This document shows positions 11,170-59,121 of a stretch of DNA of 64,000 bases, in pieces. The stretch is from the IMG/VR virus record IMGVR_UViG_3300035458_000037, positions 1-64,000 of that record, one strand, 5' to 3'. Source of the DNA: a virus. Position 1 is the stretch's first letter; each line of letters starts with the position of its first letter. The notes beneath the pieces are model-generated. The model was given only the letters and a program-made list of their open reading frames with translations. It searched no databases and had not been told where the DNA came from. The position numbers and the translations under genes are program-made.

Positions 11170-11205
11170 TGTTATAATTCAATTGTGGAGTTATAGTAAT
11201 TCCAC
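11170..11205 (+). promoter_or_regulatory. Extended -10 promoter with leader stem-loop
   Basis: TGTTATAAT at 11170-11178 is followed by a 9-bp hairpin with one G-U pair (GTGGAGTTA 11185-11193, loop TAG, TAATTCCAC 11197-11205). The next feature is the ribosome site of the RNA-ligase-like gene. Confidence 0.7.
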
Positions 11206-11227
11206 CTTACAACCCAAAGGAGTTTTT

Positions 11228-11920
11228 ATGTTTAAGTCTTACGATAAGATACCACATCTAATGTTAAGTAAAGTTCAACCGGGAGATAGATTTTTGGAAA
11301 CATCATTTGTTAAAATAGCAACTGAGAAATCTAGAGATGAACATGATAGGATTATTGTATCTGAATTAATGGATGGATTACATCTTGCTGTTTGTAAAGA
11401 GAACGGAATTATTATCCCTAAACTTAGAGATGGATCATTAGCTTCTACTCTCAAAGAAAAGAGTATTGAAATATTTTTGACATGGATATCTAAGAATGAA
11501 CATGTATTTAAAAATCTTCTTCAAGATGGAGAAAGATTATGCGGAGAATGGATGACCCAACAATATGGAACAAGTTACAAGGATCTAGTTGCGCGTTATT
11601 TCATTTTTGATATAATAAGAAATGGGAAGAGGGTTCTTTTTGATGAGCTTTCTTCGAGAATTAAATCAATAAATTTTCCAGAAATTAAAATGGTTCCGAT
11701 CTTGTTTGATTCGAATCGTGCAGTTGATATCCAGACTGCACTAGCTAGATTAGGGAAGATGGGAATGTGTAATGCTCTTGATTATCCTGAAGGTGTAGTT
11801 TATCGAGTAGAGAGAAAAGGAAGCGTTGAATTTTGCGCCAAGTTTGTATGTCTCAACAAAGATAAGTATGCACATGTAACTGGTAATAAGGTGGCATGGA
11901 ACTCATTTGATATTAAATAA
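11228..11920 (+). CDS. RNA ligase-like nucleotidyltransferase lacking the motif I lysine, 230 aa
   Basis: The layout is that of an Rnl2-type ATP-dependent RNA ligase: motif I region SELMDG (residues 45-50), motif III region with GEWM followed about 20 residues on by FIFDI, motif IV EGVVYR (about 197-202) and motif V AKFV (about 212-215). In the family, motif I is KxDG with the lysine carrying AMP. Here that position is Leu47 (codon TTA), so covalent adenylation as known should not be possible. It may be a pseudoenzyme, a ligase acting only on pre-activated ends, or a broken gene. AAGGAG lies 6 nt before ATG 11228; the unit has its own promoter at 11170. Confidence 0.75.
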   Translation: MFKSYDKIPHLMLSKVQPGDRFLETSFVKIATEKSRDEHDRIIVSELMDGLHLAVCKENGIIIPKLRDGSLASTLKEKSIEIFLTWISKNEHVFKNLLQDGERLCGEWMTQQYGTSYKDLVARYFIFDIIRNGKRVLFDELSSRIKSINFPEIKMVPILFDSNRAVDIQTALARLGKMGMCNALDYPEGVVYRVERKGSVEFCAKFVCLNKDKYAHVTGNKVAWNSFDIK

Positions 11921-11930
11921 TTTAAATATC

Positions 11931-11971
11931 TTGACTTATCTCTAATATGAATTATTCTACCCTGCGAGGGT
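11931..11971 (+). promoter_or_regulatory. Putative -35/-10 promoter with stem-loop
   Basis: TTGACT (11931-11936), a 16-nt spacer and TATTCT (11953-11958) are followed directly by a hairpin (ACCCT GCG AGGGT, 11959-11971). It would serve the lipoprotein gene at 11991. It is less certain than the TGTTATAAT sites. Confidence 0.45.
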
Positions 11972-11990
11972 TCCTGTGCGGAGGCATTCC

Positions 11991-14051
11991 ATGCGGTCCT
12001 TAATCTTGATCCTCACCCTTTTTATGGCCTGCACACCAGCTGACTCAAAGCGGCCTTATCCGGTGTCTGCAATAAGCCAGGAAGAATACAAAGCCCACCT
12101 AGAGCGTAGGGCGCACCAACCCAAACTCCCCCTCGCAGAAATAAACGTAGGAGGCCCTGAAGATTCTGATCTTGAGGAAGTCGAAGGCATAAACCTTTTC
12201 TCGTATCTGAATTTCAGGGCCTGTGGGGGCATAGCTGGGTGGAATCAGAACCTCTATAACCCTCATAATAATGGATGCATATGGGCATCTACTGCAGCCT
12301 GCTCTATCATGCGTGGCCTCAATATTTCCACCCCACAACTATTTTCTGTGGAATGGTTCAAATTGAGTTATCCGGAAAAAGCTAAGTCTAATAAACCTAT
12401 CAATAATGATGTATATTCTTTTGCAAATTGGTATAATGATAATCCAAAATTCATGCCATGGTATTGTGGGAATACCCCTTCAATCAATGGGGTTGATCTC
12501 ACTATACCGGTGAACACTGTTACTGCACATGAGATTCCGACACAAGGTGTTTCACAAGCTCAAGCTATAGCGAACATTAAAGCTGCCTTAGATGACAATA
12601 AACCTGTGGTAATGACGATCTATCTTCCAGGGGGAGGATGGGAGGATTTCTTTAAATGGTGGGACAATTCACCTGAAAATGTAGCTTACGCCGATATTGA
12701 TAAATTCAATGGTTATCGTTTCAGAATGCCAGTCAGCTCGCACAGTGTATGCATCATCGGTTACAACGATACCAGAGAGACTTGGGTAATCCTCAACAGC
12801 TGGGGCACTACCCCTGGAAGACTCCATGGCCTCTTTGAGCTGCCTCAGAACATGTGCTACGGCAGCACCATCACGTACGGGCAGACGCCAATTCGCCAAT
12901 ATGAGTTCGATATCCTGAAGGTGAATTGGCTGGCCGCCATGATTACGCACCCGGCGCCAAACACCACGGTAACCCCAGAGTCAAGTGTATTCTTTTCAGC
13001 ATTAAAGAATCAAAGTTCTACGATCCTCTACACCTGGGACTTCGGCGATGGCACCAGCCTTTCAGATCCTCACCGCCCAGACACCACCCATATCTTTCAC
13101 AAACCTGGGAGCTACAAAGTTACCCTCAAAGTCAACAATATTCTTGGCGGGGAAACCTCTGATTCTCGGGTGCTCATCGTTCAACCTTATCTGCGTCAGC
13201 ACCCATTTTCATATTCACATCCACTTCAAAAGAAAGGAGCTTTAGACGAGTGGATCTGGGGTTTGACGACAGATGACCCAACCGTTAAAACAAGTCAACA
13301 GATTAATTCCTTAAAATCGTTTTCTACAAGAATGACCTTAAGAACAGTTTTTGACCCAGGAATGACCGCAGATTACTATTTATCTTCGGTCAAATCTCTC
13401 TCAAATGTTTCTGATATAATGGGGCTGCTCGTTGATTCTTATGATATGAAAACAATAGATTTAGAAGATATAAAGAATAGAGCCGAAGACTTTATTAGTA
13501 CATTGAATCCTTATGTAAAAATTTGGGAGATTGGCAATGAAGTAAATGGAGATTGGCTGGGTGATGGTGTGATAGAAAAGATAGAAGCCGTATACGATTA
13601 CGCTAGAAACTCAGGTAAAAGCACGGCTCTCACGCTTTTTTATAATGCGGAAGACAGCTCTCAGATGGTTGAATGGGTTGATGAAAATCTTCCTGTCGGA
13701 CACAGGATGAGAGGTGGCTTAGATTATGTATTTGTTAGCTATTATGAGCAAAGTAATAATAATCATAAATTAACTCAAGAAGAAGTTAACTTAATATTTA
13801 ATCAATTAGCAGTTAGATTTCCAAACTCAAAATTGGGTTTTGGAGAGTGTGGCTGGACTGGCACTCAGAAGGTTTCTGATGCTAACAGGATTGCTTTCTA
13901 CAAACGTTTTTATGCTTTGAGATGCCCAGAAGTTCCATTTTTTGTAGGAGGTTATTTCTTCTGGAACTTCAGGCAAAAAATGGTTCCGAAAACAACAGTT
14001 GACTGGAAAACTCTTAATAATATGATAAAGAAAGGAGCCAACACCTATTAG
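11991..14051 (+). CDS. Lipoprotein with papain-like protease, PKD and glycoside hydrolase domains, 686 aa
   Basis: Residues 1-14 are a lipoprotein signal with lipobox LFMAC. Residues about 80-300 are papain-like (C1 family): Cys96 in GCIWAS, His251 in SHSVCIIGY and Asn269 in ILNSWG give the catalytic order Cys-His-Asn with the usual His-Asn spacing. Residues about 325-400 form a PKD domain (WDFGDGT). Residues about 415-686 look like a TIM-barrel glycoside hydrolase with two candidate acids, Glu517 in WEIGNEV and Glu619 in GFGECGW. The start is ATG 11991 after GGAGG. It is predicted to be exported and lipid-anchored, so it may degrade host surface or extracellular polymers. It is followed by a membrane protein and a lytic transglycosylase. 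A virion role is possible but less likely with a lipobox. Confidence 0.8.
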   Translation: MRSLILILTLFMACTPADSKRPYPVSAISQEEYKAHLERRAHQPKLPLAEINVGGPEDSDLEEVEGINLFSYLNFRACGGIAGWNQNLYNPHNNGCIWASTAACSIMRGLNISTPQLFSVEWFKLSYPEKAKSNKPINNDVYSFANWYNDNPKFMPWYCGNTPSINGVDLTIPVNTVTAHEIPTQGVSQAQAIANIKAALDDNKPVVMTIYLPGGGWEDFFKWWDNSPENVAYADIDKFNGYRFRMPVSSHSVCIIGYNDTRETWVILNSWGTTPGRLHGLFELPQNMCYGSTITYGQTPIRQYEFDILKVNWLAAMITHPAPNTTVTPESSVFFSALKNQSSTILYTWDFGDGTSLSDPHRPDTTHIFHKPGSYKVTLKVNNILGGETSDSRVLIVQPYLRQHPFSYSHPLQKKGALDEWIWGLTTDDPTVKTSQQINSLKSFSTRMTLRTVFDPGMTADYYLSSVKSLSNVSDIMGLLVDSYDMKTIDLEDIKNRAEDFISTLNPYVKIWEIGNEVNGDWLGDGVIEKIEAVYDYARNSGKSTALTLFYNAEDSSQMVEWVDENLPVGHRMRGGLDYVFVSYYEQSNNNHKLTQEEVNLIFNQLAVRFPNSKLGFGECGWTGTQKVSDANRIAFYKRFYALRCPEVPFFVGGYFFWNFRQKMVPKTTVDWKTLNNMIKKGANTY

Positions 14052-14061
14052 GAGGTAATAC

Positions 14062-14463
14062 ATGGCCATTTTTTATAAACAGTCTGAACGAAAGCGTAAC
14101 TTGATACATACCGCTTTTGTAGCACTTGCATTATCGGCTTTATCAGTGAGTATTTGGTATATGTTGTCAAATGCTCATGAGACTCTAGAGATAGGGTCCA
14201 CTGATTATGAAAATATATTGCAAACAAAGATAATGTGGTATAAACTTAAATTCTCTGTTGGGTTAGTTGGTATTGGGACTTTGGCCGCTTACCTATTATT
14301 TCAAGCTGTTTCACATTCTCCATTGGGAGCTTGCATGTGGATTTATGATAAGGAAAAAGATTGCCCACATGTAAAAGCTGCAAAGACATTATCAATGGGG
14401 GTTGTCTTTGCTTCATTTGTCATGGGAATGTTTTACGTGGTATCATCTATAATTGGGAGATAA
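14062..14463 (+). CDS. Small membrane protein, candidate holin, 133 aa
   Basis: Three hydrophobic segments are seen, at about residues 16-36, 65-85 and 112-131, with a basic N-terminus. It lies between the protease/hydrolase lipoprotein and the lytic transglycosylase, a position often held by holins, but the size and topology are not diagnostic. The second candidate holin of the window is at 28675-28944. TAGGAGG lies upstream of ATG 14062. Confidence 0.65.
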   Translation: MAIFYKQSERKRNLIHTAFVALALSALSVSIWYMLSNAHETLEIGSTDYENILQTKIMWYKLKFSVGLVGIGTLAAYLLFQAVSHSPLGACMWIYDKEKDCPHVKAAKTLSMGVVFASFVMGMFYVVSSIIGR

Positions 14464-14470
14464 TAACACG

Positions 14471-15055
14471 ATGAAAAATTCGTCCATAGTTAAGGCTATT
14501 AGGATTGTTATCATCATGACTGCTTTTCAAGCAGTCATGATGGCCCAATTTTCTCCCAAGGCTCCTAAAGTGGCTCCTGGATGTGTCGTGCCATACCAAA
14601 AGACTTTTGTAGAAATTAATTCTAGACTATGGACAATGCGTGCAGCTCAAGTTTGGTGTGAGAGTAACTTTAATCCACGAGCAAAGTCTTCGGTTGCTCG
14701 TGGATTAGCTCAATTTACAAATGGTGCATGGAGGACATGGGGGGTAAAAGGTAAAACCCCATTTGATCCTTATGCTGCTTTAGTATCTCAAAATAAATAC
14801 ATGGGATATTTAGAAATACAATGTGACAATAATTTAAATGCGGCAACTGCAAGTTACAATTGTGGACTCGAAAATGTTATTCGTGCTCAAAATCTCGCCA
14901 AGCGTTTGCGATTGGGAGGACAGGATGCCTGGCTGCGAACGTTACCAAGAATAACTGGAAGACACTCAAGAGAGACGATCAACTACATTTCCAACAATAA
15001 AAAGAAACGTAAGATTATTCAAGATCTCTTGAATCAAAAGCGGGGAAAAAAATAA
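14471..15055 (+). CDS. Lytic transglycosylase (SLT domain), 194 aa
   Basis: It cleaves the glycan strands of peptidoglycan. Residues 1-28 form an uncleaved or cleavable hydrophobic signal. The SLT core follows: Glu64 in VWCESNFNP is the expected catalytic acid, with GLAQFTNGAWRTWG as the next conserved block and a YNCG segment later. The C-terminus is very basic. ATG 14471 lies 10 nt after GGGAGA; a TTG at 14453 would add six residues. It is a likely endolysin or infection-phase muralytic enzyme. Confidence 0.85.
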   Translation: MKNSSIVKAIRIVIIMTAFQAVMMAQFSPKAPKVAPGCVVPYQKTFVEINSRLWTMRAAQVWCESNFNPRAKSSVARGLAQFTNGAWRTWGVKGKTPFDPYAALVSQNKYMGYLEIQCDNNLNAATASYNCGLENVIRAQNLAKRLRLGGQDAWLRTLPRITGRHSRETINYISNNKKKRKIIQDLLNQKRGKK

Positions 15056-30910: not shown

Positions 30911-31555
30911 ATGTATATACAATTAACAACTAGATGTAATATGGAATGTCCTCATTGTTGTTTTTCATGTACTAATCGCGGGAATGATATGACCAAGCGA
31001 ACCTTTAAAAAAGCTTGCGAAATAGCATGTTATTATGGTGATACGATCGTATTAGGAGGTGGCGAACCGACATTGCATCCTTTATTTGAAGAATTCCTTG
31101 GAATAGCTATGATAGCTACCGCTAGAAATGATCTAGGTATTTATATCGCAACAAATGGAACTAACGAATACTTAACCCTTAACTTATTAGAATTATCAAA
31201 GAGAAGTGAAGGTCTTTTGTGTTGTCAAGTGAGTCATGACAATTATCATGAAATGGATCTTGTATCAGATAAAGTATATGAATTAGCAGAAAAGTATCAT
31301 GCCTTGAAACCAGCATATCATATAGCTGCTGCTGGTAGAGCTAAAGGAAAATTAGATGCAGAAAAGAGATGTTGCTGTGACGACTTATTTATCAATCCAC
31401 ACGGAGACGTTTATCTTTGTGGTTGTAGAATAAGTAAGTTATGTAATATAACGCATAAGAAAAATATAAGTATAATAGAAAAGTATTATAATAATTATGA
31501 TATTGAAGATAAATGCGAAAAATATGGAGACATATTACAAGCATTGTCTGCGTAA
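30911..31555 (+). CDS. Radical SAM protein, 214 aa
   Basis: CNMECPHC at residues 9-16 is the CxxxCxxC that holds the [4Fe-4S] cluster for cleaving S-adenosylmethionine. GGGEPT (about 50-55) is the SAM-contacting motif. A second cysteine set near residues 152-182 (CCCDD, then CGC and C) suggests an auxiliary cluster of the SPASM/twitch kind. The substrate is unknown. It is shorter than most members. It ends the unit upstream of a terminator and the dnaE leader. Confidence 0.8.
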   Translation: MYIQLTTRCNMECPHCCFSCTNRGNDMTKRTFKKACEIACYYGDTIVLGGGEPTLHPLFEEFLGIAMIATARNDLGIYIATNGTNEYLTLNLLELSKRSEGLLCCQVSHDNYHEMDLVSDKVYELAEKYHALKPAYHIAAAGRAKGKLDAEKRCCCDDLFINPHGDVYLCGCRISKLCNITHKKNISIIEKYYNNYDIEDKCEKYGDILQALSA

Positions 31556-56258: not shown

Positions 56259-57539
56259 GTGAATCAAACTCAAAGACATCCATTAACGTGGGTGCCATCT
56301 CTATTCACTATTGAGGGAATGGGAGGCATCATACTTGGACTTGTAATTCCAACTATTTATAAGAGTTTGGGATTATCAAATACAAAGATAAGCTTTTGGC
56401 TTTCCTTAGCGGGAATGCTAATGCTTTGTCGGCCTTTGATTGTGCCATTCATCGAAATGACATGTTCAAAGAAGAATGTGGTTATCTTTTCGCAAGTATT
56501 TATGTCTTTGAGTTTTATTGCAGTTGGTTTTTCGCTAAAGACATCTAGTTTCTTTTTGGTATCATTATGCGTTGTGGCAGTTCTCACTTTACTTGTTCAA
56601 ATTCATGACCCCTGCGCAGACGGAACCTTCATTGAGGTTCTGGATGTAGCAGCACAAACCAAGTATGTGGGGTGGATGTCAGCCGGTTATCAGATTGGCA
56701 AAGTCATTTGTCAAGGCGGCATTGTTCTGGGTGCTGGTTATCTTATCGAGAATATGAAAATGGAAACCTCATCCGCTTGGATGGCTGCCATGATCATATC
56801 AGGTTTTATACTGCTAATCGTTGCTGCGTATCATGGAGTGGTAATACCTCCCACTCCTAGAAATGAAAATGCTAGGGTTGAGACTACAAAAGAATATTTC
56901 TCTAAGTTTTATGAAATCACAAAAGAATACTTCATGAAACCTGGTATTTGGTGGTGTATTCTTTTCTTTTTCTTCTATCGATTGGCTGAAGAACAAGCGA
57001 TGAATATCTTTGGGTTGTTCTTAATTGATTCACCTGCAAAAGGTGGATTGGGAATGACTATCAAAGAACTGGGTATGACTTATGGATTCTTCCCGCCAAT
57101 AGCTCTTTTCATTGGAGCTTTAGTAGCTGGTCCTGTAATGGAGAAGATGGGAGGGTTTAGAAAAGCAATTCCTCTTTTTGCGGTAATTTATAATATACCA
57201 CTTCTTCTTTATGGAATTGTTGCTTATACACTTCCAAATAATCCATACCTAATTACATTTATTTGTTGCTGCGAATATTTTGGATATGGATTTGGATGGA
57301 ATGGACTATTAGTGTGCAACCAACAGTATGCCGCTCCGGGAAGATTCAAAACTGCGCATCTGGCAATTGGGACTGCCATTGTCCATGGCGTCTCCAAATT
57401 GCCAGTTGGGTTATCTGGCTATATGTCTGACCTACTTGGATACAAACACTTCTTTGTTCATTACACATTAGCAATGATGATTCCTTCGATTATCATTGCC
57501 TTTGTAGTTTCAAAGAAATTGCGAGAAATAGAACGATAA
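56259..57539 (+). CDS. AmpG-like MFS transporter, 426 aa
   Basis: A polytopic membrane protein with about 12 transmembrane helices. HPLTWVPSLFTIEGMGGII at the N-terminus, LSNTKISFWLSL and the DPCADG-like and GVVIPP segments fit the AmpG/peptidoglycan-fragment branch of the major facilitator superfamily. AmpG proteins import anhydro-muropeptides from the periplasm in Gram-negative cells. The substrate of this member is inferred only. GTG 56259 follows GGAGG. It lies 13 bases before the POT gene. Confidence 0.75.
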   Translation: MNQTQRHPLTWVPSLFTIEGMGGIILGLVIPTIYKSLGLSNTKISFWLSLAGMLMLCRPLIVPFIEMTCSKKNVVIFSQVFMSLSFIAVGFSLKTSSFFLVSLCVVAVLTLLVQIHDPCADGTFIEVLDVAAQTKYVGWMSAGYQIGKVICQGGIVLGAGYLIENMKMETSSAWMAAMIISGFILLIVAAYHGVVIPPTPRNENARVETTKEYFSKFYEITKEYFMKPGIWWCILFFFFYRLAEEQAMNIFGLFLIDSPAKGGLGMTIKELGMTYGFFPPIALFIGALVAGPVMEKMGGFRKAIPLFAVIYNIPLLLYGIVAYTLPNNPYLITFICCCEYFGYGFGWNGLLVCNQQYAAPGRFKTAHLAIGTAIVHGVSKLPVGLSGYMSDLLGYKHFFVHYTLAMMIPSIIIAFVVSKKLREIER

Positions 57540-57552
57540 CCAAGGAGAGTTT

Positions 57553-59121
57553 ATGAATCCAGTCTTTTATCTTCCGCTGATAACAATGTCCATTCTTGGT
57601 GTTTGGACTGCTTTGATCATTAAGATCAAACGTAAGCAACATCCTGATGCATTGTTTAAGTTATTTATGGTTGAAATTTGGGAGCGATTTTCGTATTATG
57701 GCATGAGAGCAATGTTGATTCTATTCCTTTCTGCTGCTGCTACAGGTGGACTCCGTGGCGGCCTGGGAATGAATAGATCAGAAGCAATTGGTATTTACGC
57801 AGCATTTGTATCTTTGGTTTATATTACACCTCTTTTAGGTGGGAAACTGTCAGATAAAATTCTAGGTATAAAGACAGCAGTTATACTTGGATCATCTATG
57901 ATGGCTATGGGTCAATTCTGTCTGGCTTTTAGTGGCGGGAATAGAATCTTGGTCTATCTTGGGTTAGCAATATTGACGGTTGGTAATGGATTTTTTAAAC
58001 CAAACATATCTGCGCTTATAGGTAAATTATATAAGCCGGGAGACGCTAGACGTGATGGAGCGTTTACTATCTTTTACATGGGTATTAATATAGGAGCGTG
58101 GGTAGCACCATTACTTTGTGGTGCTCTTCGTGATTCTATTGGATGGAGTCCGGCTTTTGCTACCGCTGGTCTTGGCATGATTCTAGGTTTGATAATCTTC
58201 ATTTGGACGATGCGAACAGAAAAAGAAATTGCGAACTTCGCAGCGGCACCTACACCAGTTACTATTATAAAAGAAACGAATACCGTTACTCGCACCAAAG
58301 CATTTATCATTATTATATGCGCAATTCCAATTACTTGTTTGTTAATTATTAAAAACGGCTTGATGGATTGGTTATTAGGTGGAACTATTATTAGTATGAT
58401 CTCTTATATGCTTTATCTTTCTATAAAAATGGAAAAAATAGCACGCGAAAGAGTTGTTGCTTTAATTTCTCTTTTTGGTTTTTGCGTTGTATTTTGGTCT
58501 CTTTTTGAATTAGCTGGATCAGCTATTAACATTTTTACAGAGAATAATGTAGAGAAATCTTTATTCGGAGTTAAACTAACTACGGAAAGCTTTCAAAGTT
58601 TCAATGCGGCATTTGTGGTTGCCCTTGCTCCATTGATGGATAAACTGTGGTCATGGATGGCCAAAATAGGAAAGATGGCTCAAGCTCCAATCCAGTTTGG
58701 GTCAGCTTTAATATTAGTTGGTCTTGGATTTGTTTTACTCAAATTTGGAGTTCCATTTGCATCCAAATTGGGTATGATGCCAGCAATGTTTTTGGCTGGC
58801 ATGTATCTTCTTCATACTGTTGGTGAGTTATCGATTTCACCAATTGGTTTATCACTGGTCACGAAACTTGCGCCGGCATCTATGGTTTCGTTCTTTATGG
58901 GATTCTGGTTTCTTGCTACAGCTTGTGCTGGTCAGGTTGGCAAATGGATCTCACGCGCTGCGATTCCTGATGTCGTTGGAGCAACACCACTTCAAACGTT
59001 ACATACATCAGTGCATACGTTTGTTATATGTGGAGTAATATCTATTGGATGTGGTTTGATTTTGTATACAATGAATCCAATTATTAAGCGTTGGATGCAT
59101 CAAGATCAAATCCAGAATTAA
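57553..59121 (+). CDS. POT/PTR family peptide transporter, 522 aa
   Basis: Proton-coupled importers of di- and tripeptides. The family's ExxER motif is intact (Glu41, Glu44, Arg45 in EIWERFSYYG), as are GGKLSDK and the FYMGINIG segment, followed by a normal set of about 14 helices and a late FWFLATACAGQVGKW signature. So it looks functional rather than decayed. AAGGAG lies upstream of ATG 57553. It forms a two-gene unit with the AmpG-like gene, ending at the terminator at 59128. Such a transporter is unusual on a phage. Confidence 0.88.
   Translation: MNPVFYLPLITMSILGVWTALIIKIKRKQHPDALFKLFMVEIWERFSYYGMRAMLILFLSAAATGGLRGGLGMNRSEAIGIYAAFVSLVYITPLLGGKLSDKILGIKTAVILGSSMMAMGQFCLAFSGGNRILVYLGLAILTVGNGFFKPNISALIGKLYKPGDARRDGAFTIFYMGINIGAWVAPLLCGALRDSIGWSPAFATAGLGMILGLIIFIWTMRTEKEIANFAAAPTPVTIIKETNTVTRTKAFIIIICAIPITCLLIIKNGLMDWLLGGTIISMISYMLYLSIKMEKIARERVVALISLFGFCVVFWSLFELAGSAINIFTENNVEKSLFGVKLTTESFQSFNAAFVVALAPLMDKLWSWMAKIGKMAQAPIQFGSALILVGLGFVLLKFGVPFASKLGMMPAMFLAGMYLLHTVGELSISPIGLSLVTKLAPASMVSFFMGFWFLATACAGQVGKWISRAAIPDVVGATPLQTLHTSVHTFVICGVISIGCGLILYTMNPIIKRWMHQDQIQN

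Follow-up and report, generated by a model that had tools for sequence, protein, structure and literature searches.

Phage enzymes that degrade polymers mostly occur as parts of the tail or as soluble lysins. The protein studied here, the predicted product of a single phage open reading frame, combines a papain-like region, a PKD domain and a glycoside-hydrolase-like (GH) barrel, and it may be compared with several described systems. As in phage depolymerases and the enzymes of lysis cassettes, a putative polymer-cutting phage enzyme adjoins an SLT transglycosylase gene and a holin-like gene, but the protein is predicted to be lipid-anchored in the cell, with a fused candidate protease, and is neither a tail part nor a soluble endolysin. 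With the papain family of cysteine peptidases (PF00112, clan CA) it shares the Cys/His/Asn order, H-x5-GY-like and NSWG motifs, and one relative (L034), whereas it scores below the Pfam cut-off and has Cys-Ile-Trp instead of Cys-Trp and an Asn at the oxyanion position. The C-terminal domain agrees with clan GH-A (GH10, GH26, GH5, GH128, and GH53) in its (beta/alpha)8 barrel, the Asn-Glu after beta-4, and the Glu ending beta-7; in contrast, it is 9–17% identical to solved structures, and no Pfam family attains its cut-off on it. A fourth system is NfrA/NfrB of E. coli, which putatively synthesizes and secretes an exopolysaccharide; for its partner YbcH, the description goes no further than a putative scaffold in the periplasm (PMC8669469). 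One bacterial GH relative (L019) sits in a neighborhood of this type, whereas the phage gene has no adjoining porin or synthase.

Open reading frame and phage context

The window, i.e., the whole stretch of 64,000 nucleotides that was analyzed, comprises positions 1 to 64,000 of the 84,848-base IMG/VR virus record IMGVR_UViG_3300035458_000037. The record contains one intact copy of the open reading frame, which starts with an ATG at 11991, ends at 14051, and encodes 686 residues, as claimed in an earlier note made from the sequence alone. The lipobox was likewise found, and Cys96, His251, Asn269, Glu517, and Glu619 all stand at the places given there. The features are summarized in Table 1. 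With the GTG at 11976 as an alternative start, the protein would be five residues longer; the ribosome-binding site belongs to the ATG. The promoter match upstream was discarded, as such matches are no more numerous in this region than expected by chance.

Table 1. Coordinates of the features discussed, numbered from the first nucleotide of the window
Feature	Position	Strand	Basis
Weak sigma-70-like promoter match, TTGACT-16-TATTCT, upstream of the lipoprotein gene	11931..11958	+	
Ribosome-binding site, GGAGG	11980..11984	+	Sequence; 6 bases 5' of ATG 11991
Predicted 686-aa lipoprotein (papain-like, PKD, GH-A-like barrel)	11991..14051	+	ORF list, Pfam
Lipobox L-F-M-A-C, residues 10-14, closing the hydrophobic signal peptide; +2 residue Thr	12018..12032	+	Sequence
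Papain-like (clan CA) region, residues ~66-305; Cys96 (12276), His251 (12741), Asn269 (12795)	12186..12905	+	Sequence comparison
PKD domain, residues 324-394	12960..13172	+	Pfam PF00801 E 1.7e-15, PF18911 E 4e-13
Glycoside-hydrolase-like (beta/alpha)8 domain, residues 405-686; Glu517 (13539), Glu619 (13845)	13203..14048	+	Model, fold matches, alignment
Protein of 133 aa resembling a holin in shape only (three hydrophobic segments)	14062..14463	+	Sequence
SLT lytic transglycosylase with N-terminal hydrophobic segment; ATG 14471 also possible	14453..15055	+	Pfam SLT E 9e-11, phrog_669 endolysin E 2.5e-21
MFS importer; relatives beside GH130/GH92/GH3 genes	56259..57539	+	Sequence comparison
POT oligopeptide:H+ symporter	57553..59121	+	PTR2 E 1.1e-51; TIGR00924 353.7 bits, cut-off 130.2

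Because a DnaE-type polymerase, helicases, and a terminase are encoded in the record, together with a weak capsid match, the context of the gene is, judged by gene content, that of a phage. No close relatives of the record were present in the phage collection searched, a terminase search found no sister phages, and no tRNA genes were found in the phage sequence. The GC content of the papain-PKD half is 0.455–0.476 vs. 0.368 in the GH half; as values this high also occur in 26 of 608 equal-sized segments from other genes, this is a mere hint of a recent import of the papain-PKD half, and the idea was not retained. An RNA ligase family gene lies directly 5' of the open reading frame (window 11183-11920, Pfam RNA_ligase E 3.3e-11), and a radical SAM protein is encoded at 30911-31555 (Pfam E 1.9e-9).

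Predicted export and the three parts of the protein

Residues 1-14 of the protein form a short signal peptide that includes the lipobox (MRSLILILTLFMAC), and its LFMAC agrees with the general prokaryotic lipoprotein pattern. The lipobox makes it plausible, at the level of sequence, that the protein is not part of the virion. Two further small predicted lipoproteins are encoded in the phage (window 3286-3618 and 5096-5395), with the lipoboxes IVSC and ALGC and no Pfam family.

The PKD domain is certain, with 57.2 bits against a Pfam cut-off of 23.5 (E 1.7e-15). In the PDB, this region matched PKD chains of collagenases, and for nearly all of the viral relatives L002-L017 the search hits were confined to it.

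For the papain-like region, a search of the whole of Pfam gave Peptidase_C39_2 (E 3.8e-4, 21.5 bits), just under the curated cut-off, and Peptidase_C1 (PF00112; E 1.8e-3, 18.9 bits vs. a cut-off of 20.7). Pairwise BLAST against L034, a Peptidase_C1 protein of another genome with 47 bits to PF00112, yielded E 6e-8 over 104 residues. The Pfam and L034 matches span His251 and Asn269 but not Cys96. Cys96, His251, and Asn269 follow one another in the papain order with NSWG present, and both this motif and the one around the His are well preserved. Cys96 is recognized by the motif NGCIWAS, in which CIWAS resembles the CWAF of papain displaced by one, and six residues before it, where the alignment is uncertain, stands Asn90 vs. 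the usual oxyanion Gln. A single-sequence fold model of this part reached a pLDDT of only 32, too low to be of use. Searches of viral contigs, phages, and plasmids with the papain-like domain gave no match, and no relatives carrying the whole domain were found in our searches.

Thus, within the papain-type Cys-His-Asn set proposed in the earlier note, His251 and Asn269 are supported by sequence, whereas Cys96 is placed by motif, with Asn90 for the oxyanion Gln and Pfam scores below cut-off. Similarly, the proposed exported, lipid-anchored enzyme with two catalytic domains is indicated by the sequence, but its protease activity is insecure. On present comparisons the papain-like part is likely a protease. 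The low Pfam scores, the motif-based Cys96, Asn90, and the lack of relatives with the whole domain also fit another reading, in which the protein is a glycosidase with a single activity and this part a remnant that serves in binding or structure; given the good preservation of the His motif and NSWG and the match of E 6e-8 to a genuine C1 protein, we consider it quite unlikely, a judgment made apart from the three roles weighed below.

For the C-terminal part, a TIM-barrel hydrolase with Glu517 and Glu619 had been proposed, a claim that a model of another fold was to overturn. The model, built from a four-row alignment, is a confident (beta/alpha)8 barrel (pLDDT 81, pTM 0.85) with eight strands alternating with helices, and GH fold matches and the invariant Glu residues further back the proposal. 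Glu517 (domain residue 113, in GNE) directly follows strand 4 (residues 107-112) and is preceded by Asn, and Glu619 (domain residue 215) lies within strand 7 (residues 210-217), at the end of beta-7. Both are invariant in a seven-row alignment, in which the relatives came from a proteobacterial MAG (L019), Fusobacterium vincentii (L020), and the viral contigs L026, L027, L031, and L032. The Fusobacterium sequence used was the intact copy L020; a frameshifted copy lies elsewhere in the same record (L018:5920-6824). Among solved structures, Foldseek ranked GH10 xylanases best, with GH26, GH5, and GH128 lower (best E 4e-8, at the low identities given above). GH53 (PF07745) did not match the window's domain, and weak GH53 matches were seen in two relatives only (one with E 3.5e-4; L036 with 16.1 bits vs. 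a cut-off of 24). Going by the model, we place the domain in clan GH-A, as a barrel not covered by the Pfam families.

The earlier note knew of no phage protein with papain-like, PKD, and GH parts in one chain, and this held throughout everything searched. IMG/VR gave no locus with all three parts, the whole protein had no match among 50,697 phage records, and a whole-protein search of plasmids returned just PKD pieces and one Fusobacterium GH. In the GH relatives examined, the GH domain is never fused to a PKD domain or to a papain-like part; by sequence comparison, the GH domain itself is not unique to this protein. The open-access literature, outside which most subscription papers lie, gave no phage paper uniting a PKD domain, a papain-like part, and a glycoside hydrolase, and nothing on peptide transporters as auxiliary metabolic genes, which weakly supports novelty.

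Distribution of the GH domain

At least six further viral contigs carry the GH domain, which in two of these (L032 and L036) is part of a lipoprotein, and it marks an unclassified clan GH-A group present in several phages and also in a few bacteria. Among phages the family recurs, often as an exported protein or a lipoprotein (L032, L036, and L027). Among bacteria of the phylum of L019 it is rare, with matches in 2 of 399 sampled genomes, one of them marginal and partial. In a tree, the GH domains of the window, L031, and L032 group together with support of 98/98; the tree contained a wrongly framed L036 row as a long branch and was used for this clade only.

In L032, a contig of 88.7 kb, the lipoprotein consists of the GH domain and a C-terminal domain resembling an exported protein encoded just upstream, and its gene is followed by one for an exported trypsin-like protease (Trypsin_2 E 1.1e-7). 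This contig is a second case of a GH domain plus a protease, with an unrelated protease. The three genes (L032:5131-8182), for a LamG-like protein, the GH lipoprotein with its similar C-terminal domain, and the protease, all exported, lie between replication genes; a Cas4/PD-(D/E)XK-like gene, seemingly with an intein, is found at L032:2580-4553. The contig that encodes the GH lipoprotein of L036 also has a terminase-like gene. The GH protein of L027 has a signal peptide, and those of L026 and L031 have no clear one. L035, an entry of the viral collection, carries the GH gene amid transposase-like genes and is perhaps of bacterial origin.

In L031, the GH gene lies ~10 bases from an SLT transglycosylase gene, and no recognized lysis gene is located beside the GH gene in L032, L036, L026, or L027. 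Given these four contigs and the missing clear signal peptides of L031 and L026, neither lysis nor lipidation is general for the family. In L019, the gene for a GH lipoprotein overlaps a DUF4434 gene and is located downstream of a gene for a TPR protein with NfrA_C (NfrA-type porin), a neighborhood that suggests exopolysaccharide.

Candidate roles at the cell surface

The lipoprotein gene is the first in a tight run, separated by 10 bases from the gene for the three-segment protein, which in turn overlaps the transglycosylase gene by 11 bases. The three-segment protein matched no Pfam family above cut-off, no PHROG family, and no holin family. Based on these two genes in the run, and on the GH and SLT genes side by side in L031, we favor a cell-anchored enzyme that degrades surface polymer and probably aids release, a tentative reading to which we assign a probability of about 0.4. 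This reading also draws on the barrel fold with its two invariant Glu residues, the exported or lipoprotein forms in L032, L036, and L027, the neighborhood of the GH gene in L019, and the pairing of GH and protease in L032. In more general terms, the protein probably works on polymers at or around the surface of the infected cell.

According to the favored reading, the lipoprotein would be exported via the Sec route and tethered to the host envelope by an acylated Cys14. The barrel would be a retaining clan GH-A glycosidase, with Glu517 as acid/base and Glu619 as nucleophile, and would cleave a polysaccharide at the cell surface or outside the cell, whereas the N-terminal papain-like cysteine peptidase would cleave proteins of that layer. 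Between them, the PKD domain may act as a spacer or bind substrate. As a whole, the protein would loosen the layer of glycan and protein that surrounds the infected cell. Since its gene heads the run, the lipoprotein would most likely act jointly with the holin-like membrane protein and the transglycosylase, so that lysis would free the progeny.

Phage lipoproteins are known in superinfection exclusion, e.g., Llp of T5, which speaks for another reading: the lipoprotein may strip a glycan or protein receptor from the surface, so that other phages are barred and progeny do not stick to debris. To our knowledge, however, known exclusion lipoproteins are small binders and not enzymes. The bacterial relative L019 adjoins NfrA-type genes, and one report gives the Nfr glycan as the receptor of phage N4 in E. 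coli (PMC8669472); both points count in favor of receptor destruction. Overall, we regard this role as improbable.

A further reading is nutrient scavenging, in which the surface protease and glycosidase digest extracellular glycoprotein or glycan and the POT and MFS importers take up peptides and sugars. The two importer genes are in tandem, 13 bases apart, and flanked by an HNH-like gene and a capsid-like gene, and therefore belong to the phage record. Among the MFS relatives found, the nearest (~35% identity) adjoin genes for mannosyl-GlcNAc phosphorylase (GH130), GH92, and GH3 in Bacteroidota. Furthermore, each importer can be paired with one predicted activity, the protease with peptides and the glycosidase with sugars, but the pairing is by function only. 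The importers are also 42 kb distant from the lipoprotein gene, in a separate gene run, and none of the GH-bearing viral records tested, some of which are fragments, has either importer. Scavenging is, in our view, rather unlikely. That the phage holds a complete set for glycoprotein foraging, with an anchored protease-glycosidase and importers for peptides and oligosaccharides by which infected cells feed, is an unlikely case as well. The presence of the two importers in the same genome makes a nutrient role directly testable.

The unclassified clan GH-A group offers residues ready for mutation. If surface-polymer degradation by the anchored enzyme is true, a lipid-anchored protease and glycosidase in one chain, made inside the cell, would represent a different way of acting on the host surface.
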